Of a stretch of DNA of 33,179 nt, positions 1,831 through 14,176 are shown piece after piece. Positions within the stretch are counted from its first letter, which is position 1; every line of letters starts with the position of its first letter. Position numbers and translations under genes: made by a program. A model generated the notes under the pieces. The model did no database searches, was not told where the DNA came from, and was given only the letters and a program-made list of their open reading frames with translations. The DNA is from Phycisphaerae bacterium (GTDB lineage Bacteria; Planctomycetota; Phycisphaerae; Sedimentisphaerales; Anaerohalosphaeraceae): contig JAHDQI010000415.1 of assembly GCA_018433925.1 (NCBI GenBank), positions 1 through 33,179 on the forward strand. The letters are read 5' to 3'.

Positions 1831-2595
1831 TTATTTGGGAGGATAAAAAACACCGAGTACCATAAACTGGTCTGAAAATCTCTGCATGTTGCCAACAAAC
1901 AAGTAACTGTCTCTTGAATCTGAAACGATAGACAACCATTTTTCCTGAATCTTTTCAAGAAGAACCTTTGTTGTTTTGTACTGATAACGCCACCTCCGAT
2001 AGGACTGCCCTATTTCCCAGTCCAGGATAGGAAGTTTATGTCCTGGACAATTTTCTCTATCAAAGCATTTAAAATGATAATAGAAATGAAAAGGGATTTC
2101 TTCGATTGCGTCTTTCTTTTTGTCAAAAAAAGAAAGTTGTGAATAACAGGCATCGCGTTTAGTAGAGTCATTAAGTTTTATTTCCCGTGCGGAAAAACTG
2201 ATCTCCCAGGGCTTGAACATCCCCAAAGACTTCTGGTTGGGTACTTCTCTCAACAATTCACAAAAAGAACGGCAGACAGTAGGCATTATAATTTGTTTTC
2301 GTCTTTCCCATTTATTCCTTGTATCAAGCTGCTCAATGACCTGAATACTATCACTGTCAACTCGGTAACTCTCGATTCTGTGATCATTTGGGGCTTTCCT
2401 GCATTGAACTTTAAGGATAGTATATTTTTGAAATTTTTGGGACTCCTCCAGATCTCGATAAGGAATTGGGTAAAGCCGGATCCACTGTGATGTTTCAAGA
2501 TCAATCCCGGCGCAACAAACCGTTTCGCCGTATTTTTTGCTTGGATTAGGATATGTTTTTACTGTAATAAGAACCTTCTTTGTAAGCAGCCCCAT
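1831..2595 (-). CDS. Conserved protein of unknown function, partner of DUF488
   Basis: This 254-residue soluble protein begins KKVLITVKTYPNPSKKYGETVCCAGI and continues with a WIRLYPIPYR segment. I recognise this N-terminus from uncharacterised bacterial proteins but know no assigned function. No signal peptide, membrane segment or catalytic motif is evident; the C-terminal third is aromatic and basic (around RRWRYQYKTTK). The gene starts 21 bases after the DUF488 stop and is read the same way, so the two form one unit. Base composition is far from the neighbours: two sampled 60-base lines (2041 and 2281) give 28% and 35% GC, while truD is GC-rich. This suggests horizontal acquisition. A role in nucleic-acid handling or defence would be a guess. 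Confidence 0.8.
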   Translation of the reverse strand: MGLLTKKVLITVKTYPNPSKKYGETVCCAGIDLETSQWIRLYPIPYRDLEESQKFQKYTILKVQCRKAPNDHRIESYRVDSDSIQVIEQLDTRNKWERRKQIIMPTVCRSFCELLREVPNQKSLGMFKPWEISFSAREIKLNDSTKRDACYSQLSFFDKKKDAIEEIPFHFYYHFKCFDRENCPGHKLPILDWEIGQSYRRWRYQYKTTKVLLEKIQEKWLSIVSDSRDSYLFVGNMQRFSDQFMVLGVFYPPK

Positions 2596-2616
2596 AGCGT
2601 CTCCTTCGTGATGGAA

Positions 2617-3057
2617 TTATAAATTGTTTATTAAAAGTCTGTTTTTATCCTTTTCTTTTATCTTCTGAGCCACCAGGCTTCGATGGCACTGTTTCGGGGA
2701 TTTTTCAAAACACAGTAAACAACTGACATTTTCAAGAATGCAGTGATAGGCCTCTTCTAACGCATCCTCCACATCGGCCAGATGATTTTCCATGGCCTTA
2801 AAGAAAACTACATAGTCCTTTGTTTCTTTGAGTCTTTCCCGTATCTCTTTGGGGCTGCCGAACTCTCGAAAGTGGATGTATTTTATATGGTTCCTTTCCA
2901 GATGATTTTTCAGGGCCGTTTTGGAAAATCCCCTTTTTCGGGATAAGGGCAGTTCACGAACATCCAAAAGACATTCGATAGAATGCTCTTTTAGGGCCGT
3001 AAGAAAGGACTCAATGCTTTGTCCCTCATAACCTAATGTATACAATGTACTTGCCAT
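2617..3057 (-). CDS. DUF488 family protein
   Basis: The 146-residue protein is a complete DUF488 domain. It opens LYTLGYEGQSIESFLTALKE, has the LLDVRELPLSRKRGFSK segment at about residues 30-47, HFREFGSPKEIR in the middle, and the family signature CFEKSPKQCHRSLVA at about residues 115-129, with the paired cysteines and His-Arg seen in the family. The biochemical activity of DUF488 is not established as far as I know; the conserved DVR and C-x-E-x4-C-H-R motifs suggest a catalytic or metal/nucleotide-binding role. It is the first gene of a two-gene AT-rich cassette. The ATG at 3057 is directly followed by the domain, which supports this start. Confidence 0.9.
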   Translation of the reverse strand: MASTLYTLGYEGQSIESFLTALKEHSIECLLDVRELPLSRKRGFSKTALKNHLERNHIKYIHFREFGSPKEIRERLKETKDYVVFFKAMENHLADVEDALEEAYHCILENVSCLLCFEKSPKQCHRSLVAQKIKEKDKNRLLINNL

Positions 3058-3535
3058 GATTGATCTTGATACTATATCGTTATGTCGCAGTAGAGTTCAT
3101 GAAATTTTATATATATTTTTTCGGTTTGGGAACTTAGGACAGTCGCCGTTTTTTCAGATTCCCGCATTTTCAAAAACCCAAAATCCCAATCCGCAATTCA
3201 TGATTATTGGCTATGGAAAAATGGCAGACGTCCTTCTTGCCCTGTCCCTTCTTCTCCTGATTCATGCTCCTGTCTCCTTTCACGCTTTCACACCTTCATG
3301 CTTTTACGCCTTCACGCTCCATTGAACCCACAGCCCGCATTATACCGCCGTTTTACATTTCAACAATCCATTTCTTATAATATTTCCTTATTCTAAACTC
3401 TTCATTTTCCCCGTCCACTCTGTCCACTCTGTCCACCAGGTCCACCAGGTCCATTAGGTCCATTGCCGCCCGCCCGCCTCCGCACAAATCAGTATTTAAC
3501 AGTCCGTAATATAGAATAATATTTTACTATTTTTC
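3058..3535. other. Gene-free spacer with repetitive short words
   Basis: No convincing gene is present. The left part has a run of related words built on TTCAYGC and TTCACRC between about 3261 and 3320, then the 9-bp tandem repeat at 3413-3466, then AT-rich sequence leading into the dispersed element. A frame open over 3056-3325 on the plus strand encodes only what the repeated words give and has no recognisable domain. Confidence 0.6.
3413..3466. repeat. 9-bp tandem repeat, six units of GTCCAYYNN
   Basis: Six consecutive 9-base units are visible: GTCCACTCT twice, GTCCACCAG twice, GTCCATTAG once and GTCCATTGC. The GTCCA core is invariant and the last four bases vary in blocks, which suggests local duplication of pairs of units. 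Related GTCCACT words are typical of intergenic regions in some planctomycete genomes (from memory, not checked). The unit is far too short and has no spacers, so it is not a CRISPR. Confidence 0.85.
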
Positions 3536-3555
3536 AAATAATTAACATTTTATAC

Positions 3556-3583
3556 TTGGTATATAATATTTTTATGGTATAAT
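3556..3583 (+). promoter_or_regulatory. Promoter-like site inside element copy A
   Basis: TTGGTA (3556-3561), a 16-base spacer, then TATAAT (3578-3583) preceded by TG to give an extended -10. Copy B has TTGATA, the same 16-base spacer and TAGAAT at the equivalent place. Transcription would run rightward into the rest of the element. Confidence 0.6.
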
Positions 3584-3634
3584 ACCCCCCGTAAGGCCAG
3601 GAGCTTTTTGAAAAGTGCAGAAGAGAAAAAAGCG

Positions 3635-3657
3635 GTAGGGTGGGCTCTTAGCCCACC
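3635..3657 (+). repeat. REP-like hairpin with GTAG foot
   Basis: GTAG (3635-3638) is followed by a perfect 8-bp stem, GGTGGGCT (3639-3646) and AGCCCACC (3650-3657), closed by CTT. A tetranucleotide such as GTAG or GGAG at the foot of a short palindrome is the hallmark of REP sequences moved by RAYT (TnpA-REP) transposases. The same hairpin occurs in copy B, where one A-T pair becomes G-T, so pairing is kept. Confidence 0.65.
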
Positions 3658-3776
3658 GGCTTACGAATGGCCAGTACCCGAAGGTTAAGGCGCATAAATC
3701 AACAACCGCCCAAAAAAAACTCTCCCCCTGCCAAGGGGGCCCGCCCGAAGGGGGAGGGGGTTTTTAAAAACAGTTT

Positions 3777-3806
3777 CCGCCAAAGGCGGTTTCCTTATTT
3801 CTTTTC
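3777..3806 (+). terminator. Terminator-like hairpin in element copy A
   Basis: CCGCC (3777-3781), AAA loop, GGCGG (3785-3789), followed by the T-rich stretch TTTCCTTATTTCTTTT. The stem is short and the T tract is interrupted, so termination is possible rather than certain. It is conserved in copy B. Confidence 0.4.
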
Positions 3807-4119
3807 TCTCGGCAACGTTAAAACGCTGGCAAAACTCGGAAAAAACCGGAACAAAAGCGGCAATTTTTGGACAAAAAACGGACAAAACAGAACAAAGAGC
3901 GTACAAAAAAGGAAAAGAAACGGACAAACTTGGCATCAGTAATAATACCCACAAAACCGCCCCAAAGCCGCGTTTCCAGCCCAAAATCAAGGATATCACG
4001 CGTTTTTTCTTTTTTTCTCAACGCCCGATCCAGACATTGACGTCCCGCTCGCATGCCGGTACCCTATGCAAACCCGGCTGCCTTTATGCCCCAGACCTCC
4101 TGCGCAGGAAAGGATATAC

Positions 4120-6312
4120 GTGCGAAAAAGAATCGTTTTCACGGGACTGTTGCTGTCCGCTGTACTGCTCTCCGGCTGCGTATCGATGCCAAAGCAGAGG
4201 ATTTCCGAGTCCATCGAGACCGGGGAACTCAGAACCCACACAGAGTTTCTCTCCCAGCCCCGCCTGCGGGGACGAAAAACCGGCTCGCCGCAAGCCAAAA
4301 TCGCCCGCCGTTACCTGAGCCGGAAATTTGAGCGGCTTGGCCTGGTCCCCTGGGGACAGGCCGATAGTTTTGTGCAGGATTTTATGATCGGGAAAAACGT
4401 GATCGGCGTTCTGCCGGGGTCCGATCCCAACCTGGCCAGTGAGATCGTCCTTGTTTCGGCACATTACGACCACCTCGGAGCCGGACTCTTCAAAATGTAC
4501 CCCGGCGCCTGCGACAATGCCGCCGGCGTCGCCGCCCTGCTCGAAATCGCCGAGAAAATGAGCTGGCCCCAAAACAGACCCCGACGTCCGGTCTGTTTTG
4601 CCTCTTTTGACGCCGAGGAAATGGGCTGCCTCGGCGCCTTCGCGTTCACCTGCCGGGACGATTACGACGATTCAAAAATCGCCGCCGTGGTCAATATCGA
4701 TCTGCTCGGCCGGGATTTTCTGGAGGTGGTTGATAATAGTTTGCTGGTCGTCGGCGCCGAACGATTCCCCGCCCTGTGCGAGCACATCGAGCAAGCCGCC
4801 GCCGAACCCAACCTCATGATCCTCCCCTTTGAGACGGAACTGGTCGGCCCGGTCGGCGACCATGTCGCCTTTTTGTCTCCGCAGCGGCCGGCCGTATTCT
4901 TTACCTGCGGTCTCTACCGGGATTACCACCAGCCCACCGATACGGCCGACAAACTGGATTTTGATAAGATCCGCAGGGAAGCGGCCGTCATCTACAGCAC
5001 ACTGGACCACCTGGCCAATGTCCGCACCATCGAAAAGCCGGCCGAAGAAGATCCCCCCGCGCCGCGAACAATCCAATCGCTTGCCGTCGTGCTAAACGCC
5101 GTCGAGCAAAATACAGAGCTCTTCCGATTCGATCCCAATGATCTGAAAACCATCCAGGCGGTCCGAAAACAGGTGATAAAAACAGCAGAACGAGCTTCGT
5201 CCATCTCAGCCGCACAGCGGGCACGGATCGAGCGAAACGCCCTGAAAAAACTCCTGCCGCTCCTGAAGGGGGTTTTCCCGGAAATGGCCCAAAACGCCGA
5301 TACATTTCTGCAAATGGGCGAATGGTTCGCCCTGTATCCGCAGGAGTTTACCGCCGGGTACCGCGAAATCATCCGGCAGGGACTGGCAAAAAAGCCCTCC
5401 CTGCTCAGGAAAACCGTACTGACCCACAAAATCACCCCGGAACCGACAGACCGGGACTGGGCGATTCTCAGCGAACCAAACGGACTGTTCCTGGCCTGCG
5501 TGCAGCCGTGTTTTGAGACGGAGGCCGAATATTCCCTGATCGGGTCCGGCCAGCTATCCTTCAGTTTCAGTTTTCAGATCGATCTGTTTCGGGGACCCCG
5601 GAATGAGCTTGTCGATTATGTGATGCTGAAAATGATCGACGATTATTTTACGGTTCCCGAGGATTCTGAACACAGCCGTTTGCCCGATTCCAATGACTTT
5701 TCTTCAGCCAGCGCTGTCGATATTGTCCTGGATCCGAACTGCTGCGGTTCATTCTGGAATCGGATTTACCAAACCATCCCGCGCGGCGATCCGAACTCGG
5801 CCGCCCGGCCGCTGCTGGATGTTTATTTCGATCACAATGATCCGAATACGCTGTACACGCGATGGCTGACGGCCCTGCGGAGAAGTTCCAATCTGTTTTT
5901 GGCCGCCCCTGCCGTGCAGACCTCTCTGGGCCGCGAGACGGAAGACCCTTCACCGCTCTGGAGATCGCTTCTGGAAGATCCCAATACTCATCCGCAGGTC
6001 CGGGTCGGCGCCCTTTACAGATTAAGCCGGCGCCCATCGAGAGAAAATCTGCTGGCAATTACCAGGCGGCTGGAAGACCGAACGCCCTGCCCTCCTATGG
6101 AACCCAGAATGATGGCACACAAAAACTTTCCCCTGCAAGATCATCCCTTGCTGTTGCCCTTTATGCCTCACCTGAAGAAGTGGCTGAAAACCGAGCCGCC
6201 CAAAACCCTCGGCCGGATAGCCGCCGAGACCCTTCGGAAACAGACAAAGAAAAATTTCGGAACCCGCCCAAAACGCTGGCAGACCTGGATTTATAAACAC
6301 TATCCTGAATAA
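4120..6312 (+). CDS. M28-family zinc metallopeptidase, lipoprotein, with long unknown C-terminal region
   Basis: A 730-residue secreted peptidase. Residues 1-19 form a lipoprotein signal ending LLSG-Cys20, so the mature protein is probably membrane anchored. The N-terminal half is an M28 aminopeptidase domain with its co-catalytic zinc ligands in order: His115 in SAHYDHLG, Asp132 in ACDNAAGVAA, Glu166-Glu167 in DAEEMG (base and ligand), Asp194 in VNIDLLG, and His270 in YHQPTDTADKL. From about residue 305 to the end there are some 425 residues I cannot assign to a family. The GTG at 4120 follows AGGAAAGG at a good distance and starts exactly at the signal peptide; the ATG at 4066 would add 18 residues unlike a signal. 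The substrate is unknown. A TTGACG at 4037-4042 might be a -35, but no good -10 follows it. Confidence 0.9.
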   Translation: MRKRIVFTGLLLSAVLLSGCVSMPKQRISESIETGELRTHTEFLSQPRLRGRKTGSPQAKIARRYLSRKFERLGLVPWGQADSFVQDFMIGKNVIGVLPGSDPNLASEIVLVSAHYDHLGAGLFKMYPGACDNAAGVAALLEIAEKMSWPQNRPRRPVCFASFDAEEMGCLGAFAFTCRDDYDDSKIAAVVNIDLLGRDFLEVVDNSLLVVGAERFPALCEHIEQAAAEPNLMILPFETELVGPVGDHVAFLSPQRPAVFFTCGLYRDYHQPTDTADKLDFDKIRREAAVIYSTLDHLANVRTIEKPAEEDPPAPRTIQSLAVVLNAVEQNTELFRFDPNDLKTIQAVRKQVIKTAERASSISAAQRARIERNALKKLLPLLKGVFPEMAQNADTFLQMGEWFALYPQEFTAGYREIIRQGLAKKPSLLRKTVLTHKITPEPTDRDWAILSEPNGLFLACVQPCFETEAEYSLIGSGQLSFSFSFQIDLFRGPRNELVDYVMLKMIDDYFTVPEDSEHSRLPDSNDFSSASAVDIVLDPNCCGSFWNRIYQTIPRGDPNSAARPLLDVYFDHNDPNTLYTRWLTALRRSSNLFLAAPAVQTSLGRETEDPSPLWRSLLEDPNTHPQVRVGALYRLSRRPSRENLLAITRRLEDRTPCPPMEPRMMAHKNFPLQDHPLLLPFMPHLKKWLKTEPPKTLGRIAAETLRKQTKKNFGTRPKRWQTWIYKHYPE

Positions 6313-6393
6313 ATCCGCCACATGATTTTCCTTGCAATGCGTTGGGACGGCGGATATACAAAAAGAAAAACATTCAGGAACGGATCAGGATTG

Positions 6394-7026
6394 ATGAAAA
6401 CAGCGGTATCAAAAGACATGCCTAATACGGCCGGGACGGAATGCCCTTTTACGATTCATGTAAACAAGCTCAACGAATCGGGTTATGAAGCGGCCCTGGC
6501 GGGGCTGGCTCACAATAAAAAACAAAGCCCGGAGAAGATGACCGCCGTGGCCGAGCGGTTGTCGGACAAAGACGGCGGGCATAATAAATTTCTCGAAAGC
6601 ATCTATGTCTGGCTGGATGTCAGAGCCCCCCGGTACTGGTGGCAGGAGGCCGATACATTCCGGCTGTCCACCAAGCAGTCTGAGAGTACCATGCATACGC
6701 TGACCGGCGAACTGTTGGCGGTCGATCTCGAAAACCCCGGCTCCGTAGAGGCGTTTAGGCGGCAAAACTTTGAGCCGGACAGTTGCTCTCTCGATACGCT
6801 TAAAGAGATTTACCGGGCCGCTGAAAACAAAGACCTGGTGGGCGTCAAAAAACGCCTGCCGGAGGGCTTTCTGCAAACGCGGATGTGGTGCATGAGCTAC
6901 CGGACGCTGCGCAACCTGATCCTCCAGCGGCGCACACATCGCCTGCCGCACTGGAAGGAGTTTATAAGACAAACACTCGCTCAACTCGACCATCCCGAAC
7001 TGCTGCCGGGACGGTCCGCCGACTAA
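6394..7026 (+). CDS. ThyX-like phage-type conserved protein
   Basis: The 210-residue protein has NKFLESIYVWLDVRAPRYWW followed by EADTFRLSTKQSESTMHTL at about residues 65-105, and PEGFLQTRMWCMSYRTLRNL with ILQRRTHRLPHWKEF near the C-terminus. This pattern belongs to a family common in phages and anaerobes that looks distantly like FAD-dependent thymidylate synthase (ThyX), with the serine-rich STMH segment in place of the ThyX motif. No reaction has been shown to my knowledge. The frame is open from 6322; ATG at 6394 follows AGGA and gives the family-like N-terminus, while the upstream residues look untranslated. Its stop overlaps the stop of the converging sulfite reductase gene by 4 bases, an unusually tight convergent pair. 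Confidence 0.7.
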   Translation: MKTAVSKDMPNTAGTECPFTIHVNKLNESGYEAALAGLAHNKKQSPEKMTAVAERLSDKDGGHNKFLESIYVWLDVRAPRYWWQEADTFRLSTKQSESTMHTLTGELLAVDLENPGSVEAFRRQNFEPDSCSLDTLKEIYRAAENKDLVGVKKRLPEGFLQTRMWCMSYRTLRNLILQRRTHRLPHWKEFIRQTLAQLDHPELLPGRSAD

Positions 7027-8342
7027 TATCTCTGCCGGAACCAATGAGCGATTTGCCGGGCAGGAACCGTATCCGCTTTTTCGGCCAGTTTGTCTGTTTG
7101 GCCGTGTCCGCCGCCGGTCAGGATATCGAAACATTCCGTGCGCCGGCCGTGGATGGTTTGGAGACGTCCGATCAGGCCAATGTCCGCAACGGCACTGTGA
7201 GCACAGCCGTTAGGACAGCCGGAAACAGCGATCTTCTTTCCTGCCAGGTCAATCCCTTCCAGCCCCTGCATTTCCACGGCGATCTCTTGGGTGCTGACCA
7301 GGGCCCGCGGGCAGGAGGCCGCCCCCGGACAGGCAACCACGCAGGGCAGGTTCGCAAACCCCTGTAATTCCTTCGGCAGAGCAAACGGCTTCGGCCCATA
7401 CAGCTCCAGCCCATGCGAAAGATTAATGCGCAAAACGGCATCCCCCTCCTGGGCGATCTCAGCCAGTTGTATGGCTTGACGAGGATCGATATTCCCATTG
7501 GGCAGTTGCAGTACATGAAGCCGCCTCATTCCAGTCCGGCCCCGAGACAGAACAATAGCCGGCCACGGGTGCTGCCGCCGAAGAGCCCGAAAACGCTCAT
7601 CCAGTTGCCTGCGAAATACGTCATTCCCCAGCCGCTGCCGCACATGCCGCAGCCGGGCCTTGGACCGGTTCTGCCGATCCCCCAGTTCAATAAACAACTC
7701 CAGCGCTGCCCGTGCCAGCAGGATAACATCTTCAGCCGGCATGTTTTCATAAAGCACAATACCGGTTTGCGGACGTGGGCCCAGCGAACCGGCCCCAATG
7801 ACCTGAAATGAGCAGTCCGCCTGTACAACGAAACCGAGGTCGCTTATATACGGGCAGGCGTGATGATTGTCGCGGCCTGAAAAACTGACCTTAAATTTTC
7901 GCGGCAGCGAATGCTCTGCGGACATTTCCAGCAGAGTCTCCCTGACCAGTCGTGCCAGGGGCAGGAGGTCAAAACCGAGCTCATCGAATTCACACGCCGG
8001 GCAGATAGTAATATTGCGGACCGAATCACCGCAGGCGCCATAGGTGTTCAGCCCGATCAACTGCAATTCCTGAGTTACCTGCGGCACACACGGATCCGGC
8101 AGGTCGTGCATCTCGATATCCTGCCGCGTGGTAATATGCAGCGGCACACCGGGTGTATAGCGCTCGGCCAGGGCCGCCACCTGCCGCCATTGTTTCCAGC
8201 CGATCCGGCCGGCAAACACCGGTATCCGCTGCATGGATCTCCCCTCCTGCTTTTGCGGATAGGTTCCCAGTAATCGTGAATTCATGTTTGAAGAACCGGT
8301 GTTTGGCTCGGCCGAATCGATCTGGACGGATTGCCGTTTCAT
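7023..8342 (-). CDS. Siroheme-[4Fe-4S] sulfite (or nitrite) reductase
   Basis: A 439-residue hemoprotein of the nitrite/sulfite reductase family, which reduces sulfite to sulfide by six electrons. Two ferredoxin-like half domains (GTYPQKQEGRSMQRI...HITTRQDIEMH and HVLQLPNGNI...HGLELYG) flank two siroheme/4Fe-4S domains. The cluster ligands are Cys338 and Cys344 (CPGAASC) and Cys376 and Cys380 (CPNGC). It follows cysH with only two bases between stop and start, so sulfite reduction is more likely than nitrite reduction. ATG at 8342 follows GGAG. The later ATG at 8234 has a textbook AGGAGG before it, but this encodes the conserved QEG of the first domain, so that start would truncate it. Confidence 0.9.
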   Translation of the reverse strand: MKRQSVQIDSAEPNTGSSNMNSRLLGTYPQKQEGRSMQRIPVFAGRIGWKQWRQVAALAERYTPGVPLHITTRQDIEMHDLPDPCVPQVTQELQLIGLNTYGACGDSVRNITICPACEFDELGFDLLPLARLVRETLLEMSAEHSLPRKFKVSFSGRDNHHACPYISDLGFVVQADCSFQVIGAGSLGPRPQTGIVLYENMPAEDVILLARAALELFIELGDRQNRSKARLRHVRQRLGNDVFRRQLDERFRALRRQHPWPAIVLSRGRTGMRRLHVLQLPNGNIDPRQAIQLAEIAQEGDAVLRINLSHGLELYGPKPFALPKELQGFANLPCVVACPGAASCPRALVSTQEIAVEMQGLEGIDLAGKKIAVSGCPNGCAHSAVADIGLIGRLQTIHGRRTECFDILTGGGHGQTDKLAEKADTVPARQIAHWFRQRY

Positions 8343-8344
8343 GG

Positions 8345-9064
8345 TCAGCTCCGGGAAGCAGCCGTCTTCAGCGGACGTGTATGAATGCCGCATTCCCCGC
8401 CGCATTTGCTGGTTCCAATCCAGCGTCCGGCTCGCTCATCAGCTCCCTGGGAAATGTGCGTGCAGGGAGCACAGCCGAGAGAGCGATACCCCCTGGCATA
8501 TAAGGGATTAACAGGGACCTGATAGACAGCCAGGTACTGCCAGATCTCCCGTTCGTACCAAATCAACACGGGATTGAGTTTAACCAGACCCGCATCTCTC
8601 TCTTCCACTTCCTGAAAATCCGTGCGGGTGCGGCCCTCGGTGCAGCGCAGACCGGTAACCCAGCAGGCCACGTTCATCTCGTCAACGGCCTGCCGGGTTG
8701 GTTCGACCTTGAGCAGGTCGCAGCAGCGGTCCGGATCGGTTTTGTATAATTCCTCCGGAATCTCCACCTCATTCCTGAATACCCGGAGTTCCGGATACCT
8801 GGCGACCTGCTCGTGCATAAACCGTACCGTCTCAGCAGGTTTGTAACGAGTAGTGACAATAAAACCGGGGATGTCGGGGCTGACTCGTTTGGCCAGATCC
8901 CAGATGACCACGGAATCTTTTCCCAGACTGTTGGCTACCACCAGCCGTTCGCCATATTTTTTCCAGGCGGCCTCGATCAAGGTCAGCGCCCGATCGACCT
9001 TCTCGGCAAAATTCAGCCCTTCCACCAGTTCCTTCACATTCTGATTGGCAAACTCTTTCAACAT
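8345..9064 (-). CDS. cysH: Assimilatory APS/PAPS reductase CysH
   Basis: The 239-residue protein is a thioredoxin-dependent reductase that releases sulfite from an activated sulfate nucleotide. The P-loop-like SLGKDSVV lies at residues 46-53. Cys114-Cys115 and Cys198-x-x-Cys201 form the four-cysteine [4Fe-4S] site typical of APS-using enzymes and of the cluster-containing CysH type. The catalytic cysteine is in the C-terminal GGECGIH (Cys225). The cluster cysteines suggest APS rather than PAPS as substrate. It lies in a unit with a DUF2061 gene before and sulfite reductase after, so sulfite is passed to the next enzyme. Sulfate activation genes (sat, cysDN) are not in this window. ATG at 9064 has GGAAAGG about 10 bases upstream. 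Confidence 0.93.
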   Translation of the reverse strand: MLKEFANQNVKELVEGLNFAEKVDRALTLIEAAWKKYGERLVVANSLGKDSVVIWDLAKRVSPDIPGFIVTTRYKPAETVRFMHEQVARYPELRVFRNEVEIPEELYKTDPDRCCDLLKVEPTRQAVDEMNVACWVTGLRCTEGRTRTDFQEVEERDAGLVKLNPVLIWYEREIWQYLAVYQVPVNPLYARGYRSLGCAPCTHISQGADERAGRWIGTSKCGGECGIHTRPLKTAASRS

Positions 9065-9098
9065 AAATTTTAACCTTTCCAGAAAAATTTCGTTCAGT

Positions 9099-9320
9099 TT
9101 AAATCTGGTATTCCGGCGGTTTCATCTTGCCAAACGGCAGATGATTCCATAAGCGTTCGTGAAAATAAAAAACTCCGATTTTGAGCAGCGTATCAACCAC
9201 ACCGATTTTGGCGGCATCATCGATCCGGCCGATGACCAACCAGGCGGTCAGAAACGTCACCACCGTCCCCCCCGTCCGCCATGTGACTGCCTTAAAAATG
9301 CTTCGCAGATGACTTTCCAT
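9099..9320 (-). CDS. DUF2061 membrane protein
   Basis: A 73-residue protein with the DUF2061 pattern: SIFKAVTWRTGGTVVTFLTAWL as a first membrane helix, a short loop, then DTLLKIGVFYFHERLWNHLPFG. Such proteins are small, hydrophobic and frequently encoded next to cysteine biosynthesis genes; their function is unknown, though association with sulfate assimilation has been suggested by context. Here it sits between the Rrf2 regulator and cysH. AGAGGAG precedes the ATG. The start codon lies within the 12-bp palindrome ATAAACGTTTAT (9319-9330), which may be an operator or an mRNA feature. Confidence 0.9.
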   Translation of the reverse strand: MESHLRSIFKAVTWRTGGTVVTFLTAWLVIGRIDDAAKIGVVDTLLKIGVFYFHERLWNHLPFGKMKPPEYQI

Positions 9321-9342
9321 AAACGTTTATACTCCTCTTATT

Positions 9343-9359
9343 CCCATAGATATAGTAGG
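9343..9359 (+). promoter_or_regulatory. Candidate Rrf2 operator before the cys genes
   Basis: CCCATAGATATAGTAGG shares the GATATAGT core and the CC...AGG ends with the site just upstream of the rrf2 start (9839-9856, read on the minus strand). It lies in the 57-base gap between rrf2 and the DUF2061/cysH/sulfite reductase genes, the place expected for control of sulfur genes by a CymR-type regulator. Inference only. Confidence 0.35.
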
Positions 9360-9377
9360 TTATGTATTCAAAAAAAT

Positions 9378-9833
9378 TTATATGACATAATTACCGATAT
9401 AGGCGGCCTCGCATTCCTGCTCCTGCCGGACCATATCCTCAAGCGTGATCTTGTCCATGATATCCGAGATTGACGCATTAGTTTTCGTAAACAGCCATTT
9501 TTCGCTGAAATCACCTGCTTTAATTCGTTTCGGTTTAGACAGTTTTCCGCTGTCATCTGGGCGAATTGATTCGACAAACCGGATAATTTGTCCAACGGTG
9601 ATCTGGCCCGGCTTTTTGGCCAGTACATATCCGCCGTGTTTTCCTCGAACAGAAAGTACAAAACCACCCTGTCGCAACTGGCTGAGAATGACCTCCAGAA
9701 ACCGTGTTGGGATATCCTGAGTGTCCGCCACTTTTCTGACGCCAACCGGCTCTCGGCTATTTTGTAAAGCCAATTGAATCAGTGCCCGCAAAGCGTAGCG
9801 GCTTTTTTGTGATATTTTATAATACTCGTACAT
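9378..9833 (-). CDS. Rrf2-family transcriptional regulator (CymR-like)
   Basis: A 151-residue Rrf2 protein with an N-terminal winged helix-turn-helix (YKISQKSRYALRALIQLALQ, then IPTRFLEVILSQLRQGGFVLSVRGKHGGYVLAK at about residues 41-73). Known members include IscR, NsrR and CymR. The three clustered cysteines that hold the iron-sulfur cluster of IscR and NsrR are absent: the only cysteine is near residue 142. This fits CymR, the cluster-free repressor of cysteine and sulfur genes. The genes that follow on the same strand encode sulfate reduction enzymes, so it most likely controls them and itself. GAGGT precedes the ATG. Confidence 0.9.
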   Translation of the reverse strand: MYEYYKISQKSRYALRALIQLALQNSREPVGVRKVADTQDIPTRFLEVILSQLRQGGFVLSVRGKHGGYVLAKKPGQITVGQIIRFVESIRPDDSGKLSKPKRIKAGDFSEKWLFTKTNASISDIMDKITLEDMVRQEQECEAAYIGNYVI

Positions 9834-9838
9834 TATTA

Positions 9839-9856
9839 CCTCACTATATCAGTCGG
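9839..9856 (-). promoter_or_regulatory. Candidate Rrf2 autoregulatory operator
   Basis: On the minus strand CCGACTGATATAGTGAGG is a near-palindrome (CCGACT against AGTGAGG) that overlaps the ribosome site and lies between the promoter and start codon of rrf2. It shares the core GATATAGT with 9343-9359. A repressor bound here would block transcription of its own gene. Confidence 0.35.
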
Positions 9857-9870
9857 ATTAATGATGTTTA

Positions 9871-9899
9871 ATTCTAAAAAAATTTAAACGTCTTTGCAA
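9871..9899 (-). promoter_or_regulatory. Promoter of the rrf2 gene
   Basis: On the minus strand TTGCAA (9894-9899), a 17-base spacer and TAGAAT (9871-9876). Transcription would start near 9864, upstream of the candidate operator and the start codon at 9833. Confidence 0.5.
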
Positions 9900-9910
9900 C
9901 TGTTTTTTTA

Positions 9911-9940
9911 AAAATTTTTGATTCCCTGTTAAAATTTTTG
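9911..9940. repeat. Direct repeat AAAATTTTTG, 20 bp apart
   Basis: AAAATTTTTG occurs at 9911-9920 and 9931-9940, with centres exactly two helical turns apart, in the divergent promoter region between rrf2 and the mgtC-family gene. The spacing would put two bound proteins on one DNA face, but A/T tracts alone may also explain it. Confidence 0.5.
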
Positions 9941-10007
9941 TAATCATATTTATAATAATGGTTTATACTCTTTAGAAATCGCTCGTTTTTTGACGATACA
10001 TAGAGTT

Positions 10008-10490
10008 ATGGAACAATTTTGCCCATTGATTGATAAAATGAATTTACAACAGTTTACGCCGCTGGCCGTAGCGATCCTGCTGGGGGGGCTGATCGGTATT
10101 GAGCGGGAAATCCACAAAAAGCCGGCCGGGCTTCGAACCAATGCACTCATTTGCCTTGGGGCGGCCCTGCTGACCATGATTGCCCGGACCACCGCAGGGG
10201 GGGAGGATGGCTCCACACGGATTATCCAGGGGATTATCACGGGCGTCGGCTTTATCGGGGCCGGAGCGATTATGCGCGATCAAGCCAATATTTATGGAGT
10301 AACCACCGCCGCCACGATCTGGATCGTAACGGTCATCGGGATTGCCTGCGGGTATGAACTCTATCGGCTGGCTGTCTTTACAACCATCCTGTCGCTGCTG
10401 ATTCTTTTCGGGCTGGGGCAACTGGATCGAAAAATTCAAAAACACGTCGATAACGGAATCCACCAACACACAAAAGAATCCGGCCAGTAA
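10008..10490 (+). CDS. MgtC/SapB family inner-membrane protein
   Basis: About 160 residues with four to five hydrophobic helices. The family signature is clear: LLGGLIGIEREIHKKPAGLRTNALICLGAALLTM at about residues 26-60, then GIITGVGFIGAGAIMRD and TTAATIWIVTVIGIACG. MgtC-type proteins act at the inner membrane and are linked to growth at low magnesium and to membrane energy balance; many distant members have no tested role. This copy lacks the C-terminal soluble domain of the longer MgtC proteins. ATG at 10008 or 10038 are both possible; an upstream TTG at 9990 is less likely. It is divergent from rrf2 and has no obvious operon partner. Confidence 0.88.
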   Translation: MEQFCPLIDKMNLQQFTPLAVAILLGGLIGIEREIHKKPAGLRTNALICLGAALLTMIARTTAGGEDGSTRIIQGIITGVGFIGAGAIMRDQANIYGVTTAATIWIVTVIGIACGYELYRLAVFTTILSLLILFGLGQLDRKIQKHVDNGIHQHTKESGQ

Positions 10491-10532
10491 TCAGTTCCAC
10501 CATGGTGTTTATGGACTGCCGCAGGATGGGTT

Positions 10533-10561
10533 TTGACTTATTTTAGGGGATGTCATATAAT
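10533..10561 (+). promoter_or_regulatory. Strong sigma-70-type promoter
   Basis: TTGACT (10533-10538), a 17-base spacer and a perfect TATAAT (10556-10561), 44 bases before the ATG of the DRTGG gene. Confidence 0.75.
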
Positions 10562-10605
10562 CTGCACTTGCCGATAAAATTCAAAATTCAGACAAGCGGA
10601 GATTC

Positions 10606-11691
10606 ATGAAACCGATTTATATTGGAGCGACGCTGCGGGACTGCGGGAAGACCTCGGTCAGCGTGGGCATGATGCAGATTTTGCGTCAGCGCGGGCTGGA
10701 ACCGGGTTATTGCAAACCCGTCGGGCAGCACTATGTTCGCTATCAAGATAAAAATATTGATGAGGACGGCGTGCTGATGCACCAGGTCTTTCACCTGCCG
10801 GACGAGCCGTATTACCTGAGCCCGATTGCCATCGAACGTGGGTTTACCCGCAAGTTCATCGAAAATCCGGATGTGAAGCCCCTTGAAAAGCAGATTCTCG
10901 ATGTGGATGCCCAGTTGCGGGCCGCCCATCCGATGATTATCTACGAAGGGACCGGCCATGCGGGAGTGGGAAGCTGTTTCGGCTTGTCCAATGCCCGAGT
11001 CGCCCAACTGCTCGGAGCCAAAGTTGTCATCGTCACGGCCGGGGGCATCGGCCGGCCCATTGATGAGATCGCCTTGAGCTTATCGCTGTTTCGAGATTAC
11101 GATGTGGACGTTCTGGGTGTGATTTTAAACAAGATCCTGATCGATAAATACGACTCGGTTCGGCAGGCCGTCTCAAAAGGTCTGTCCCTGCTTGATACGC
11201 GGCTTCTGGGGGCGATTCCCTATGATCCGGGCCTGGCGGAATTTACGGTCGGCCAGGTGGCGGAGGAATTCAGCTACCGGGTGCTGTGCGGTTCCGATGC
11301 CCTGAACAATCGGATTCACCATACGGTCATCGCCGCGATGGAACCGCAGCATGTGTTTGAGCATGTTGTGGATCACACGTTGGTGATTATGCCCGGCGAC
11401 CGGGTGGATAACATTCTGATCTCCATTTTACTGTTGTCCAAACAGGCCGAACGAACGGGCGGGATGATCCTCAGCGGCGGATTTGAGCCGCATCCGACGA
11501 TTGAGCCGCTGCTCCGGGCCAGCCAGATTCCGGTCCTGATCAGCGAGGATGACACCTTTACCGTCAGCGCCCGGATGAAGGACCTGGGCTTCAAGATCCG
11601 CTCGTACGATACCGATAAGATCACCCGGCTGCATCAACTGGTGGATGAATACGTCGATATGGACCAAATCCTCAAGGCCCTCGAAGATTAA
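10606..11691 (+). CDS. P-loop NTPase with DRTGG domain (Pta N-terminal/BioD-like)
   Basis: A 361-residue cytoplasmic protein. The N-terminal domain (about 1-210) is a BioD/CobQ-like P-loop ATPase with GATLRDCGKTSVSVGMM at residues 7-23 and YEGTGHAGVGSCFGLSNARVAQLLGAKVVIVTAGGIGRP in the middle. Residues about 215-325 form a DRTGG-type domain, here written ERTGGMILSGG. The architecture is that of the regulatory N-terminal part of long phosphotransacetylases, without the catalytic Pta domain. Stand-alone proteins of this type have no firmly established function; a nucleotide-sensing or metabolic regulatory role is inferred from the domains. It has its own strong promoter. Confidence 0.85.
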   Translation: MKPIYIGATLRDCGKTSVSVGMMQILRQRGLEPGYCKPVGQHYVRYQDKNIDEDGVLMHQVFHLPDEPYYLSPIAIERGFTRKFIENPDVKPLEKQILDVDAQLRAAHPMIIYEGTGHAGVGSCFGLSNARVAQLLGAKVVIVTAGGIGRPIDEIALSLSLFRDYDVDVLGVILNKILIDKYDSVRQAVSKGLSLLDTRLLGAIPYDPGLAEFTVGQVAEEFSYRVLCGSDALNNRIHHTVIAAMEPQHVFEHVVDHTLVIMPGDRVDNILISILLLSKQAERTGGMILSGGFEPHPTIEPLLRASQIPVLISEDDTFTVSARMKDLGFKIRSYDTDKITRLHQLVDEYVDMDQILKALED

Positions 11692-11812
11692 TCAGGGAAT
11701 ATTCTTTTTAAATGGGAGGGGTATTTTTTAAAGAGCGGTCAAGTCACATTGGGAAACTTTCAAGCGGGCCACTTTTTGTCTGATTTTTGTCGAAAAGGGC
11801 TAAATGTTCGTT
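11692..11812. other. Spacer before element copy B
   Basis: No gene or clear hairpin. It contains short T- and A-rich stretches only. Confidence 0.4.
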
Positions 11813-11992
11813 TATGGGCTGGAAATGCGGTTTTTTGGAGGTTTTATAGGTATTATTCCTGATGCCAAGTTTGTCCATTCCTTTTCCTTTTTTGTCCACT
11901 CTTTGTTCTGTTTTGTCCGTTTTTTGGCCAAAAATTGCCGCTTTTTTTCCTGTTTTTTCCGAGTTTTGCCAGCGTTTTAACGTTGCCGAGGG

Positions 11993-12021
11993 AAAAGAAA
12001 CAAGGAAACCGCCTTTGGCGG
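11993..12021 (-). terminator. Terminator-like hairpin in element copy B
   Basis: On the minus strand CCGCC, AAA, GGCGG followed by TTTCCTTGTTTCTTTT, equivalent to the hairpin at 3777-3789. Weak as a terminator but conserved between copies. Confidence 0.4.
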
Positions 12022-12069
12022 AAACTGATTTTAAACCCCCTCCCTTTCTTTGCCGGCCCTTCGTAAGCC

Positions 12070-12092
12070 GGCGGGCTAAGAGCCCACCCTAC
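12070..12092 (-). repeat. REP-like hairpin with GTAG foot, copy B
   Basis: On the minus strand GTAG followed by GGTGGGCT, CTT, AGCCCGCC. One position differs from copy A (A to G), turning a T-A pair into a T-G pair and so keeping the stem. Confidence 0.65.
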
Positions 12093-12143
12093 CGCTTTTA
12101 TCTCTTCTGCACTTTTCAAAAAGCTCCTGAGCTTACAGGGGGT

Positions 12144-12171
12144 ATTCTACCATAGATATATTAAATATCAA
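12144..12171 (-). promoter_or_regulatory. Promoter-like site inside element copy B
   Basis: On the minus strand TTGATA (12166-12171), a 16-base spacer and TAGAAT (12144-12149) preceded by TGG. Same spacing and place as in copy A. Confidence 0.6.
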
Positions 12172-12185
12172 GTATAAAATATTAA

Positions 12186-12352
12186 AAATTAGAAAAATGT
12201 TGAAATTTTTAAGATTTATTGGACATGGAACGGCGGCAACCATTATGAATGCCTGGAGATAAACGACTTGTGCATGGCCGTCTCTGAGGCATTTAAAATA
12301 AACCTGTCAATCCAAGAAAAACTTTTTCCCTTTTTCTGCCAAGGGAAATGGA
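12186..12352. other. Spacer with a possible gene remnant
   Basis: No intact gene. One plus frame from about 12219 reads YWTWNGGNHYECLEIND and continues LCMAVSEAF, faintly like the start of a C-type-lectin-like secreted domain (W-NGG-HYE, then an Ala-rich helix), but there is no start codon or signal sequence. It may be a decayed fragment or chance. Confidence 0.25.
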
Positions 12353-12574
12353 TTATTGAGGGGGTGTGTCCAGTTGAAAGACTTCTTCGACCTGCCTGCC
12401 GAAGGCGCGGGCGATGCGGATGGCCAGCATCAGCGAGGGGCAGTACTTGCCCTGCTCGATGGCGATGATCGTCTGGCGGGTGACGCCGACCTTCTCAGCC
12501 AGGGCCTGCTGGGTCATCTGGCCGGCGTCAAACCGAAGCCGACGAATCGTATTGGTGAGTTGATCCTTACTCAT
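12353..12574 (-). CDS. XRE-family transcriptional regulator
   Basis: A 73-residue Cro/CI-type helix-turn-helix protein: [20 protein letters not shown], then [20 protein letters not shown], then [14 protein letters not shown]. The helix-turn-helix spans about residues 18-50. It belongs to the compact group of XRE regulators often encoded with small membrane proteins. It is last in a four-gene unit: its ATG overlaps the end of the preceding gene by 8 bases, with GAAGG upstream, so translation is probably coupled. An earlier ATG at 12589 is in frame. It probably represses its own operon through the palindrome at 13566-13580. Confidence 0.88.
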
Positions 12575-12998
12575 TGCCTTCTTTCCCATGGTACAAAAGG
12601 AATAGGAATTGGACTGTTCCGGCGATAAAAAAACCGCAAAGGAGGGCCAGCGGGATTGACCACATCGGTACCATGCCCCGACCACCGACAAGATAAAAGG
12701 CAATAACTAAAGCAAGAAACACATAAGCAATAAAAACATGGTTACCGACGTTGATCGATCTTTGTATCAGAAAAAACTCTCGTTCGTCATACTGCGGTTT
12801 ATTATTCCGTTTACGTATTCGGGCATTTAAAAAAAACATGAAACCTACACACAAACTGGCATAGGCCAACCCAATGATTAAATATTTAGGGCCTTTGATG
12901 TCTGCATAAGCCGCAACCCCGAAGAGCAGCATTATTGCAATTGTTATCACACAGGCAATCCGGAAATCCTTCCACGCTTTTTTCTGCATGCGGTTCAT
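12567..12998 (-). CDS. Small membrane protein, third of a paralogous trio (DUF2178-like)
   Basis: A 143-residue protein with four predicted membrane helices and a cytoplasmic loop holding [12 protein letters not shown], a DERE-type motif like that of DUF2178 proteins. It begins MNRMQKKAW, the same start as the two proteins encoded before it. Its ATG overlaps the stop of the preceding gene as ATGA. Function is unknown; pairs of XRE regulators and membrane proteins of this type occur widely and may act in envelope stress or drug response, but nothing in this sequence shows that. Confidence 0.8.
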
Positions 12999-13420
12999 AC
13001 GTCGCTGCCTCCTTTTCTGTATGCAATCAGATAGGTCAGGGACTCAATAAATACGAAAACTACGGGGGCAAGACACACGCAGATCGGCAGGATGTTAACA
13101 TTGATGAGCGCCCCGGGTCCGTTATAGAGCCAGATTCCCATCGCCAGTAACACAAAGAACATGTAGGAAGCGATGAATCCATTGTTTTTGGCCAACTCTT
13201 TGATTGCCCGGTCTCGTTCATCCACAATAGCGGGGTCGTCTTTTTTGACAAATACGCCGCAAAGATACCCGAGAATACCGGTGTTGACGAAGAGGAACCC
13301 CCGCCAGGCGAACGGGAATCCTTTTGCGGCAGTCCAGTAAACAACGATCATGCAACTGACAAAAAACGCTATCCCTATCGAGATCAGTGTGATCCAGGAT
13401 TGTTTCTGCAAACGATTCAT
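12995..13420 (-). CDS. Small membrane protein, second of a paralogous trio (DUF2178-like)
   Basis: A 141-residue protein beginning MNRLQKQSW with four predicted helices. The central loop has DERDRAIKELAKNNG, which matches the DERE loop of the next protein. The frame is open upstream to 13564, but the ATG at 13420 overlaps the stop of the micro-protein gene as ATGA and gives the family start, so the longer form is rejected. Codon overlaps at both ends indicate coupled translation. No catalytic residues are evident. Confidence 0.82.
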   Translation of the reverse strand: MNRLQKQSWITLISIGIAFFVSCMIVVYWTAAKGFPFAWRGFLFVNTGILGYLCGVFVKKDDPAIVDERDRAIKELAKNNGFIASYMFFVLLAMGIWLYNGPGALINVNILPICVCLAPVVFVFIESLTYLIAYRKGGSDV

Positions 13421-13536
13421 GCCTGGTCTCCTCCTTTGCCACAGAGAATCAGGATTGTCACTGCGATGGCCGAACAGACCAGGGCGGCCCCCATTGTAAT
13501 CACCATCAGCCAAGACATTTTCTGAATGCGATTCAT
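13417..13536 (-). CDS. 39-residue membrane micro-protein, first of a paralogous trio
   Basis: This 39-codon frame begins MNRIQKMSWLMVITMGAAL and contains a single membrane helix ending in a short GKGGDQA tail. It aligns with the first 35 residues of the next protein (MNRLQKQSW, then a helix of similar pattern), so it looks like a single-helix paralogue rather than noise. The ATG follows AGGA about 7 bases upstream (GGACAGGAAAATG), and its TGA overlaps the next ATG. It is the first gene after the promoter. It could be a subunit or regulator of the larger paralogues, or the remnant of a full gene that still serves coupling. Confidence 0.75.
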   Translation of the reverse strand: MNRIQKMSWLMVITMGAALVCSAIAVTILILCGKGGDQA

Positions 13537-13552
13537 TTTCCTGTCCTTTCCA

Positions 13553-13601
13553 ATGTATATTCAACTATACATAATGTATACTATACCGTACTATATGTCA
13601 A
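13553..13601 (-). promoter_or_regulatory. Promoter and palindromic operator of the XRE/membrane operon
   Basis: On the minus strand a perfect TTGACA (13596-13601) is the -35. A perfect palindrome, TATACAT-A-ATGTATA (13566-13580), covers the -10 region, and a further ATGTATA half site lies at 13553-13559. The location fits an operator for the XRE protein at the end of the operon. The -10 itself is TATACA or TACATT and is weak. Confidence 0.65.
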
Positions 13602-13631
13602 GTTATTTTTACATATATTTTGAAAAAATTT

Positions 13632-13916
13632 TTATCGTTCCTTTTCCAGATATTTTGGGGTTCCCAGTCGGGACAATTTTACATATTGTCCTTCTATTTT
13701 GTAGATCATTACGATATCGTCGTAAACATAACAATCATACCATCCCGATCCTTGGGCAGGAATCGAGTTTACTGCGTATTTTTTTGATAAGTCCTTTCCC
13801 TGATGTAGGATAGAGACTGCCTGAAAAAGTGCTTTTCGAATCTGAGGAGATTGCTTCAGTCTCTTTTCGAGTTGCTTATAATCTTTTTTGAATTCATCCT
13901 TCCAATGAATTCTCAA
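13632..13916 (-). CDS. RelE/YafQ-family toxin of a type II toxin-antitoxin pair
   Basis: A 94-residue protein with the RelE-superfamily fold pattern: IHWKDEFKKDYKQLEKRLKQ as the first strand-helix, PAQGSGWYDCYVYDDIVMIYKI in the core, then VKLSRLGTPKYLE. Toxins of this family cut mRNA on the ribosome. In YafQ the C-terminal histidine of G-[ST]-H-S is catalytic; here the place reads GTPKYLE, without histidine, so activity may be reduced or use other residues. The gene overlaps the antitoxin gene by 4 bases (ATGA), the usual antitoxin-first order. Confidence 0.88.
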   Translation of the reverse strand: MRIHWKDEFKKDYKQLEKRLKQSPQIRKALFQAVSILHQGKDLSKKYAVNSIPAQGSGWYDCYVYDDIVMIYKIEGQYVKLSRLGTPKYLEKER

Positions 13917-14176
13917 CGCTCAAGCTCCTCAAAAAGCTCCTCAACACTTTTGGCCTCATGCAGACCAATGCCTGCGTCTACTTCATCCATGATTCGTTTG
14001 GTTTCTTCGTTAAACTCCAGATATTCGAGGGGTATTCTGCCCTGGTTGTCGATTTGCCCCAGAAACATTTTGATGGCCCCGGACATACTAATCTGCATTC
14101 GGCTGAGGATTTTCGAGACCCTTTTTTTCAGATCCTCATCCACACGTATTTGAATTGTCGTTGTTTTTCCTGCCAT
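13913..14176 (-). CDS. RelB/DinJ-family antitoxin
   Basis: An 87-residue protein with an N-terminal ribbon-helix-helix domain (TTTIQIRVDEDLKKRVSKIL, then MQISMSGAIKMFLGQI at about residues 27-42) and an acidic C-terminal tail (SVEELFEELER) that would wrap the toxin. RelB/DinJ antitoxins neutralise the toxin and, as a complex, repress the operon. A matching inverted repeat lies just upstream (14189-14220). The toxin gene follows with an ATGA overlap. Confidence 0.9.
   Translation of the reverse strand: MAGKTTTIQIRVDEDLKKRVSKILSRMQISMSGAIKMFLGQIDNQGRIPLEYLEFNEETKRIMDEVDAGIGLHEAKSVEELFEELER

Follow-up and report, generated by a model that had tools for sequence, protein, structure and literature searches.

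A modular, non-coding interspersed repeat with a predicted curved core and a GC-skew polarity in a Phycisphaerae bacterium

The two inverted sequences that bracket an 8-kb segment of the analyzed window (the whole stretch of 33,179 nucleotides) belong to a dispersed repeat family with at least 46 copies in the genome. Copies A and B (Table 1) are best described as members of a lineage-specific, non-coding, modular, BOX-like interspersed repeat with a predicted curved core and a replication-strand polarity, which has probably spread in trans; the probability of this description as a whole is about one half.

Table 1. Coordinates of the repeat copies and of the reversed gene block in the window.
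Feature	Position	Strand	Basis
Copy A	3518-4005	+	blastn and inverted-repeat match to 11812-12209; family of at least 46 copies
Copy A, sigma70-like promoter: TTGGTA (3556-3561), 16-bp spacer, TATAAT (3578-3583)	3556-3583	+	predicted by reading; in the optional 5' module, conserved across 5' modules
Copy A, middle cassettes: GTGGGCTCTTAGCCCAC palindrome, CTCCCCCTGCCAAGGGGG palindrome, CCGCC-AAA-GGCGG palindrome	3629-3827	+	cassettes swapped, lost or replaced among copies
Copy A, 3' core: phased A-tracts, predicted curved, near-invariant 28-mer at 3922-3949	3828-3949	+	period of 10.5 bp; curvature peak; 28-mer found 46 times
Copy A, tail: more variable, 11-bp one-turn unit present or absent among copies	3950-4005	+	alignment columns 174-220
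Copy B, inverted	11812-12209	-	blastn and inverted-repeat match
Copy B, sigma70-like promoter: TTGATA (12171-12166), 16-bp spacer, TAGAAT (12149-12144)	12144-12171	-	predicted by reading and alignment
Copy B, 3' core: phased A-tracts, 28-mer at 11876-11849	11849-11970	-	28-mer pattern, curvature
Gene block from the 6322-7026 protein to DRTGG	6322-11691	.	tblastn synteny; inverted relative to ogt-pheA-tpiA in comparison with congeners G002 and G004

The copies were counted by the 28-mer GGACAAACTTGGCRTCAGGAAWAATACC, allowing up to 3 mismatches. At least 46 are present in the organism's own assembly (3.76 Mb in 441 contigs), about one per 80 kb; 41 of the 46 show no mismatch to the degenerate pattern, and the reversed 28-mer pattern, used as a control in the same assembly, gives no match. 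For 34 of the 46, the distance to a contig end is no more than 450 bp, which suggests that the assembly is interrupted by the repeat itself. The pair had been presented earlier as an undescribed element to be sought in the genome and its relatives, and this search, so productive here, finds the family in none of 160 other genomes of the order, including five congeners. In the case of congener G002 (1.4 Mb compared), dispersed repeats are few and the sole match is a 25-nt palindrome. Approximately 85,000 species genomes and a viral collection yielded only isolated chance matches of 19-25 nt in unrelated organisms, and homologs of the repeat in other species were rejected on these grounds. A plasmid or phage origin was likewise rejected, no plasmid or phage record matching the repeat, and Rfam contains no family at the gathering score and no meaningful match at E up to 1. 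The repeat is a previously undescribed non-coding family, found in this species alone among those searched.

Each copy is a mosaic of an optional 5' module, shuffled middle cassettes, and an invariant 3' core of ~122 bp that ends in the 28-mer. The 5' module (~110 nt) is AT-rich and, in the alignment of full copies, contains a sigma70-like promoter (TTGNTA-16-TATAAT) and GTAAGGCCAGGAGCTTTTTGAAAAGTGCAGAAGAGGAAGT; it is present in some copies only. Between the conserved ends, the recurring cassettes comprise arrays of CTGGTAT/CTGGCCA heptamers, a GTGGGC palindrome, a CCCCCTGCCAAGGGGG palindrome, the CCGCC-AAA-GGCGG palindrome, and a GTGTGGCTCAAAAATGTGCGCC block, in shuffled arrangements. For the CCCCCTGCCAAGGGGG cassette, 12 of 13 matches in the genome are found on contigs that also carry the 28-mer. 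The tail on the 3' side of the core is looser, and its 11-bp unit corresponds to one helical turn. The mean identity is 91% for the core and 77% for the 5' module, the core being the more similar in every pair of full copies, and the core alignment contains one gap in 42 rows of 121 columns. This higher, nearly gap-free similarity indicates that the core is under constraint, or homogenised among copies.

The earlier note had left room for a known transposon or a coding repeat. No coding signal and no encoded transposase were found within the repeat. The variable columns of the core are distributed approximately evenly over the three codon positions (counted by eye), the tail carries the 11-bp indel, and the copies enter the core in different frames, and a coding repeat was rejected on each of these points. 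In ten full copies, the longest end-to-end inverted match is 5-9 nt, within the range of shuffles, so no terminal inverted repeats are discerned. In respect to target-site duplications, matches of 5-8 nt occur at inconsistent offsets, the ends of the element being blurred and no empty site being available for comparison. At three loci (L033:3456-4667 on contig C8 of the own assembly, G000, and also L006 and L022) a transposase gene and an identical IS end (...GGTTGACAC) are found just before GGGGGAGGGGG. The gene at L033:3456-4667, which we take to be IS481-like, is a separate insertion beside some copies and not part of the repeat; the IS end lies at the same point in at least three repeat copies, by repeated insertion at one site or by the spread of an IS-carrying copy.

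The A-tracts of the core have a best period of exactly 10.5 bp over ~10 turns. The best-period power is reached by 3 of 500 dinucleotide shuffles, and the power at 10.5 bp by none of the 500. Intrinsic curvature is predicted for the core, with ratios of contour length to end-to-end distance (dinucleotide-wedge model, parameters from the literature) of 1.42-1.79 in all 42 measurable copies, while the window has a median of 1.03 and a 99th percentile of 1.19. The predicted curvature exceeds that of all 500 mononucleotide shuffles, and the stretches with the highest predicted values in the window are copies A and B. On the sense strand, the RNA of the core folds no better than shuffles (z of 0.80 and 0.12); a structured RNA or Rfam family was rejected on these values and on the lack of an Rfam match. 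The conserved unit is an A-tract array with no notable fold and not a short imperfect palindrome.

Helically phased arrays are found in other settings. The parC iterons of ParMRC plasmids are direct repeats about one helical turn apart, whereas here single arrays are dispersed in the chromosome, with no linkage to parM or parR seen. The mobile element IS5 reportedly has an A-tract region with a bend; it shares the 10-11-bp phasing of A-tracts but is one IS, and not a unit repeated at least 46 times. Phased A-tracts of the same 10-11-bp spacing, tied to intrinsic curvature, are also described in bacteria as a statistical, genome-wide signal (PMC3940949), while here a discrete unit of ~122 bp recurs at least 46 times.

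The orientation of the copies follows the strand composition of the chromosome. When the flanks are oriented by the element, the GC skew is negative in 35 of 44 loci (mean -0.077, t-test p=1.5e-5). At third codon positions the skew on the element strand is approximately -0.092 for co-oriented and -0.116 for opposite genes (genes called with a crude ORF picker), and this negative sign in both sets indicates that the polarity is not an effect of gene direction. GC3 skew on the + strand of the window changes sign between the outer flanks, from -0.38 beyond the left end of copy A to ~+0.25 in the core genes that follow copy B on the right; with respect to these flanks both copies obey the genome-wide orientation rule, which could alone be enough to explain why they are inverted. 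The cumulative GC skew has a minimum at ~9.85 kb, with opposite skews on either side, from about -0.24 to +0.17 (window 9800-14000). A replication origin within the segment is not claimed, as only three loosely matching, scattered DnaA boxes are present; the minimum, with no DnaA-box cluster, marks the boundary between two replichores or else a junction left by a rearrangement. The skew of the window is much stronger than that of the homologous regions in the congeners (L121-L125 of G001-G005).

The strand polarity and the conservation might equally well stem from a function in the host that selection maintains. The repeat would then be a site of chromosome architecture, its core and 28-mer bound by a putative nucleoid, segregation or topoisomerase protein and held in a fixed orientation in each replichore to organise the DNA. 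We consider this a possible explanation: the core has hardly any indels and is conserved much more strongly than the 5' module linked to it, the helical phasing extends over ~10 turns, the polarity is independent of gene direction, and the spacing is about one copy per 80 kb. A host function should, however, leave some trace in the congeners, all of which lack the repeat, and promoter and palindrome cassettes are unexpected in such a site. To our knowledge, no protein is known to bind the core. A related suggestion, put forward tentatively and with some doubt, is that a dispersed, replication-polarised site, composed of a 10-turn curved array and a fixed 28-bp landmark, could serve to organise or segregate the chromosome, having originated and increased in number in a single lineage.

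In the window, copy A returns in reverse complement as copy B with 88-91% identity, far above chance. The inverted-repeat search gives two ungapped pairs of arms, both of 88%: 3758-4005/11793-12040 (248 nt) and 3518-3672/12055-12209 (155 nt). The corresponding blastn matches are 3752-3986 with 12044-11812 (91%, E=2.5e-90) and 3518-3672 with 12209-12055 (88%, E=3.7e-50), so the inverted pair seen earlier by eye is real. The middle of copy A is ~85 bp longer than that of copy B; the size of ~450 bp given in the earlier note suits copy A, and copy B is shorter (~398 bp). The enclosed genes are those for M28, the 6322-7026 protein, a nitrite/sulfite-reductase-like protein, a cysH-like protein, an Rrf2-like protein, mgtC, and DRTGG, in agreement with the M28, cys, mgtC and DRTGG content named before (M28 and DRTGG are confirmed by Pfam). 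The 5' ends of both copies are the outer ones, on the island sides, as had been noted, but both predicted promoters point inward, away from the islands.

The outer neighborhoods have features of their own. Just outside copy A (3400-3480) lies a short tandem run of GTCCACCAG/GTCCATTAG nonamers, and related sequence is found upstream of several other copies. An AT-rich DUF488 gene lies between TruD and copy A (1831-3057), and a neighbor of this gene weakly matches, below the cut-off, the dual-OB domain PF22557. At 13632-14176, a pair of YafQ-type toxin and RelB-type antitoxin genes adjoins an XRE regulator, which is accompanied by two proteins with no Pfam match.

In congeners G002 and G004, the homolog of the 6322-7026 gene adjoins ogt-pheA-tpiA (tblastn synteny), and relative to these genes the block in the window is reversed and has copies A and B close to either end. 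Such an inversion is the outcome expected of a past recombination between A and B, which it fits but does not prove. On the recombination reading, the M28 gene (found within the genus in this genome alone) and the XRE/toxin-antitoxin stretch are expected to have been gained earlier or later than the inversion. In G002 and G003, DRTGG abuts a fumarate-hydratase-like gene, the homolog of which lies here on another contig. The genes that have left the neighborhoods of DRTGG and TruD were located, and in the stretches examined no repeat copy is found beside either; with no copy near the fumarate-hydratase-like homolog, not every rearrangement here is explained by the repeat.

The inverted pair and the reversal of the block against G002 and G004 would also agree with A and B being a specific switch that flips the 8-kb segment. 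This is highly improbable, as at least 46 copies exist with no such pairing rule, the longest exact match between A and B is only 39 bp, and there is no gene that the promoters would obviously switch. The capacity of the pair to invert the segment, proposed earlier, agrees with the comparison to the congeners, but a dedicated two-copy device does not agree with the copy number or with the genome-wide skew rule; the repeat resembles a mobile repeat or a site that organises the chromosome. It is also very unlikely that a chimeric join at repeats produced the inverted arrangement of the window (the family would still be real). The assembly does struggle at the copies, most of them being close to contig ends, but the longest exact matches to any other copy compared (74 bp for A and 73 bp for B), like that between A and B, are short for a false join, which they make less likely, yet possible.

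The genes beside the copies do not bear out the earlier idea of a preferred landing site for acquired genes. In a comparison against 45% (1.4 Mb) of G002, the first gene beside the 3' end of a copy has an ortholog in 14 of 35 cases, versus 41 of 141 other genes (Fisher p=0.23), and many genes adjoining copies look like housekeeping genes. The genes downstream usually start or end within 300 bp. Their orientation is unbiased, with approximately 23 in the same and 19 in the opposite direction (p=0.64). A Rho-type terminator read on the other strand was considered for the regularly spaced YC dimers and rejected, opposite-oriented downstream genes not being enriched.

The nearness of these genes, together with the predicted sigma70-like promoter and its 16-bp spacing conserved in the 5' modules, would be expected of a regulatory or transcribed element, in which the promoter drives a small RNA or a neighboring gene and curved DNA tunes transcription. 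A precedent for an A-tract-containing mobile element that activates a gene has been published for IS5 (PMC2753651). This explanation is nevertheless unlikely: downstream orientation is unbiased, the RNA of the core folds no better than shuffles, and several copies have no 5' module. Moreover, the promoter strand is the C-rich strand, and transcription would run head-on if the G-rich strand is the leading one.

In architecture, the closest published analogue is the BOX element of Streptococcus pneumoniae, which has terminal inverted repeats, target-site duplications, and a predicted RNA structure (PMC3049150). Both repeats are short, intergenic, lineage-restricted and present in many copies, can cluster with or insert into other repeats, and have fixed end modules around a variable middle, the 5' end module being optional here. 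In contrast to BOX, no terminal inverted repeats, consistent target-site duplications or RNA structure were found in the present repeat, and its conserved core is composed of phased A-tracts. With MITEs (reviewed in PMC10969869) it shares small size, the lack of coding capacity, many dispersed copies and, presumably, movement in trans. Lacking terminal inverted repeats above shuffles and a consistent target-site duplication, it is not filed as a MITE. The REP/BIME and IS200/IS605-derived elements (PMC2817692, PMC6006769) are likewise mosaic intergenic repeats, but the core here is an A-rich phased array and not a REP hairpin. IS608 and ISDra2 target the lagging-strand template (PMC6006769), and lagging-strand-coupled single-strand transposition of the IS200/IS605 type would produce a strand polarity.

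The lineage restriction, dispersion, mosaic cassettes, and intergenic sites argue for a mobile repeat, although the moving unit lacks definition, since the 5' module is missing from several copies. The repeat has probably spread as a non-autonomous element, moved in trans by a process associated with replication, which would fix its orientation relative to the replicating strand. By analogy, the polarity could result from single-strand, replication-coupled insertion, and equally from selection on a host site that has a polarity. A putative mobilising or accessory protein might assemble on the curved core and the 28-mer, with the upstream promoter and the palindromic cassettes as exchangeable cargo. 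Inverted pairs of copies would then be ordinary substrates of homologous recombination, offering an explanation for the inverted block.

The repeat explains a practical problem, as the majority of its copies lie at contig breaks of the draft genome. Palindromes and RNA folds are the usual hallmarks of interspersed bacterial repeats, whereas the conserved unit here appears to be a DNA shape, made of helically phased A-tracts and kept in more than 40 copies nearly without indels, whose orientation follows the strand bias of the chromosome. Should this be borne out, a single family would connect DNA curvature with replication-strand-coupled spread and with the rearrangement of the genome.
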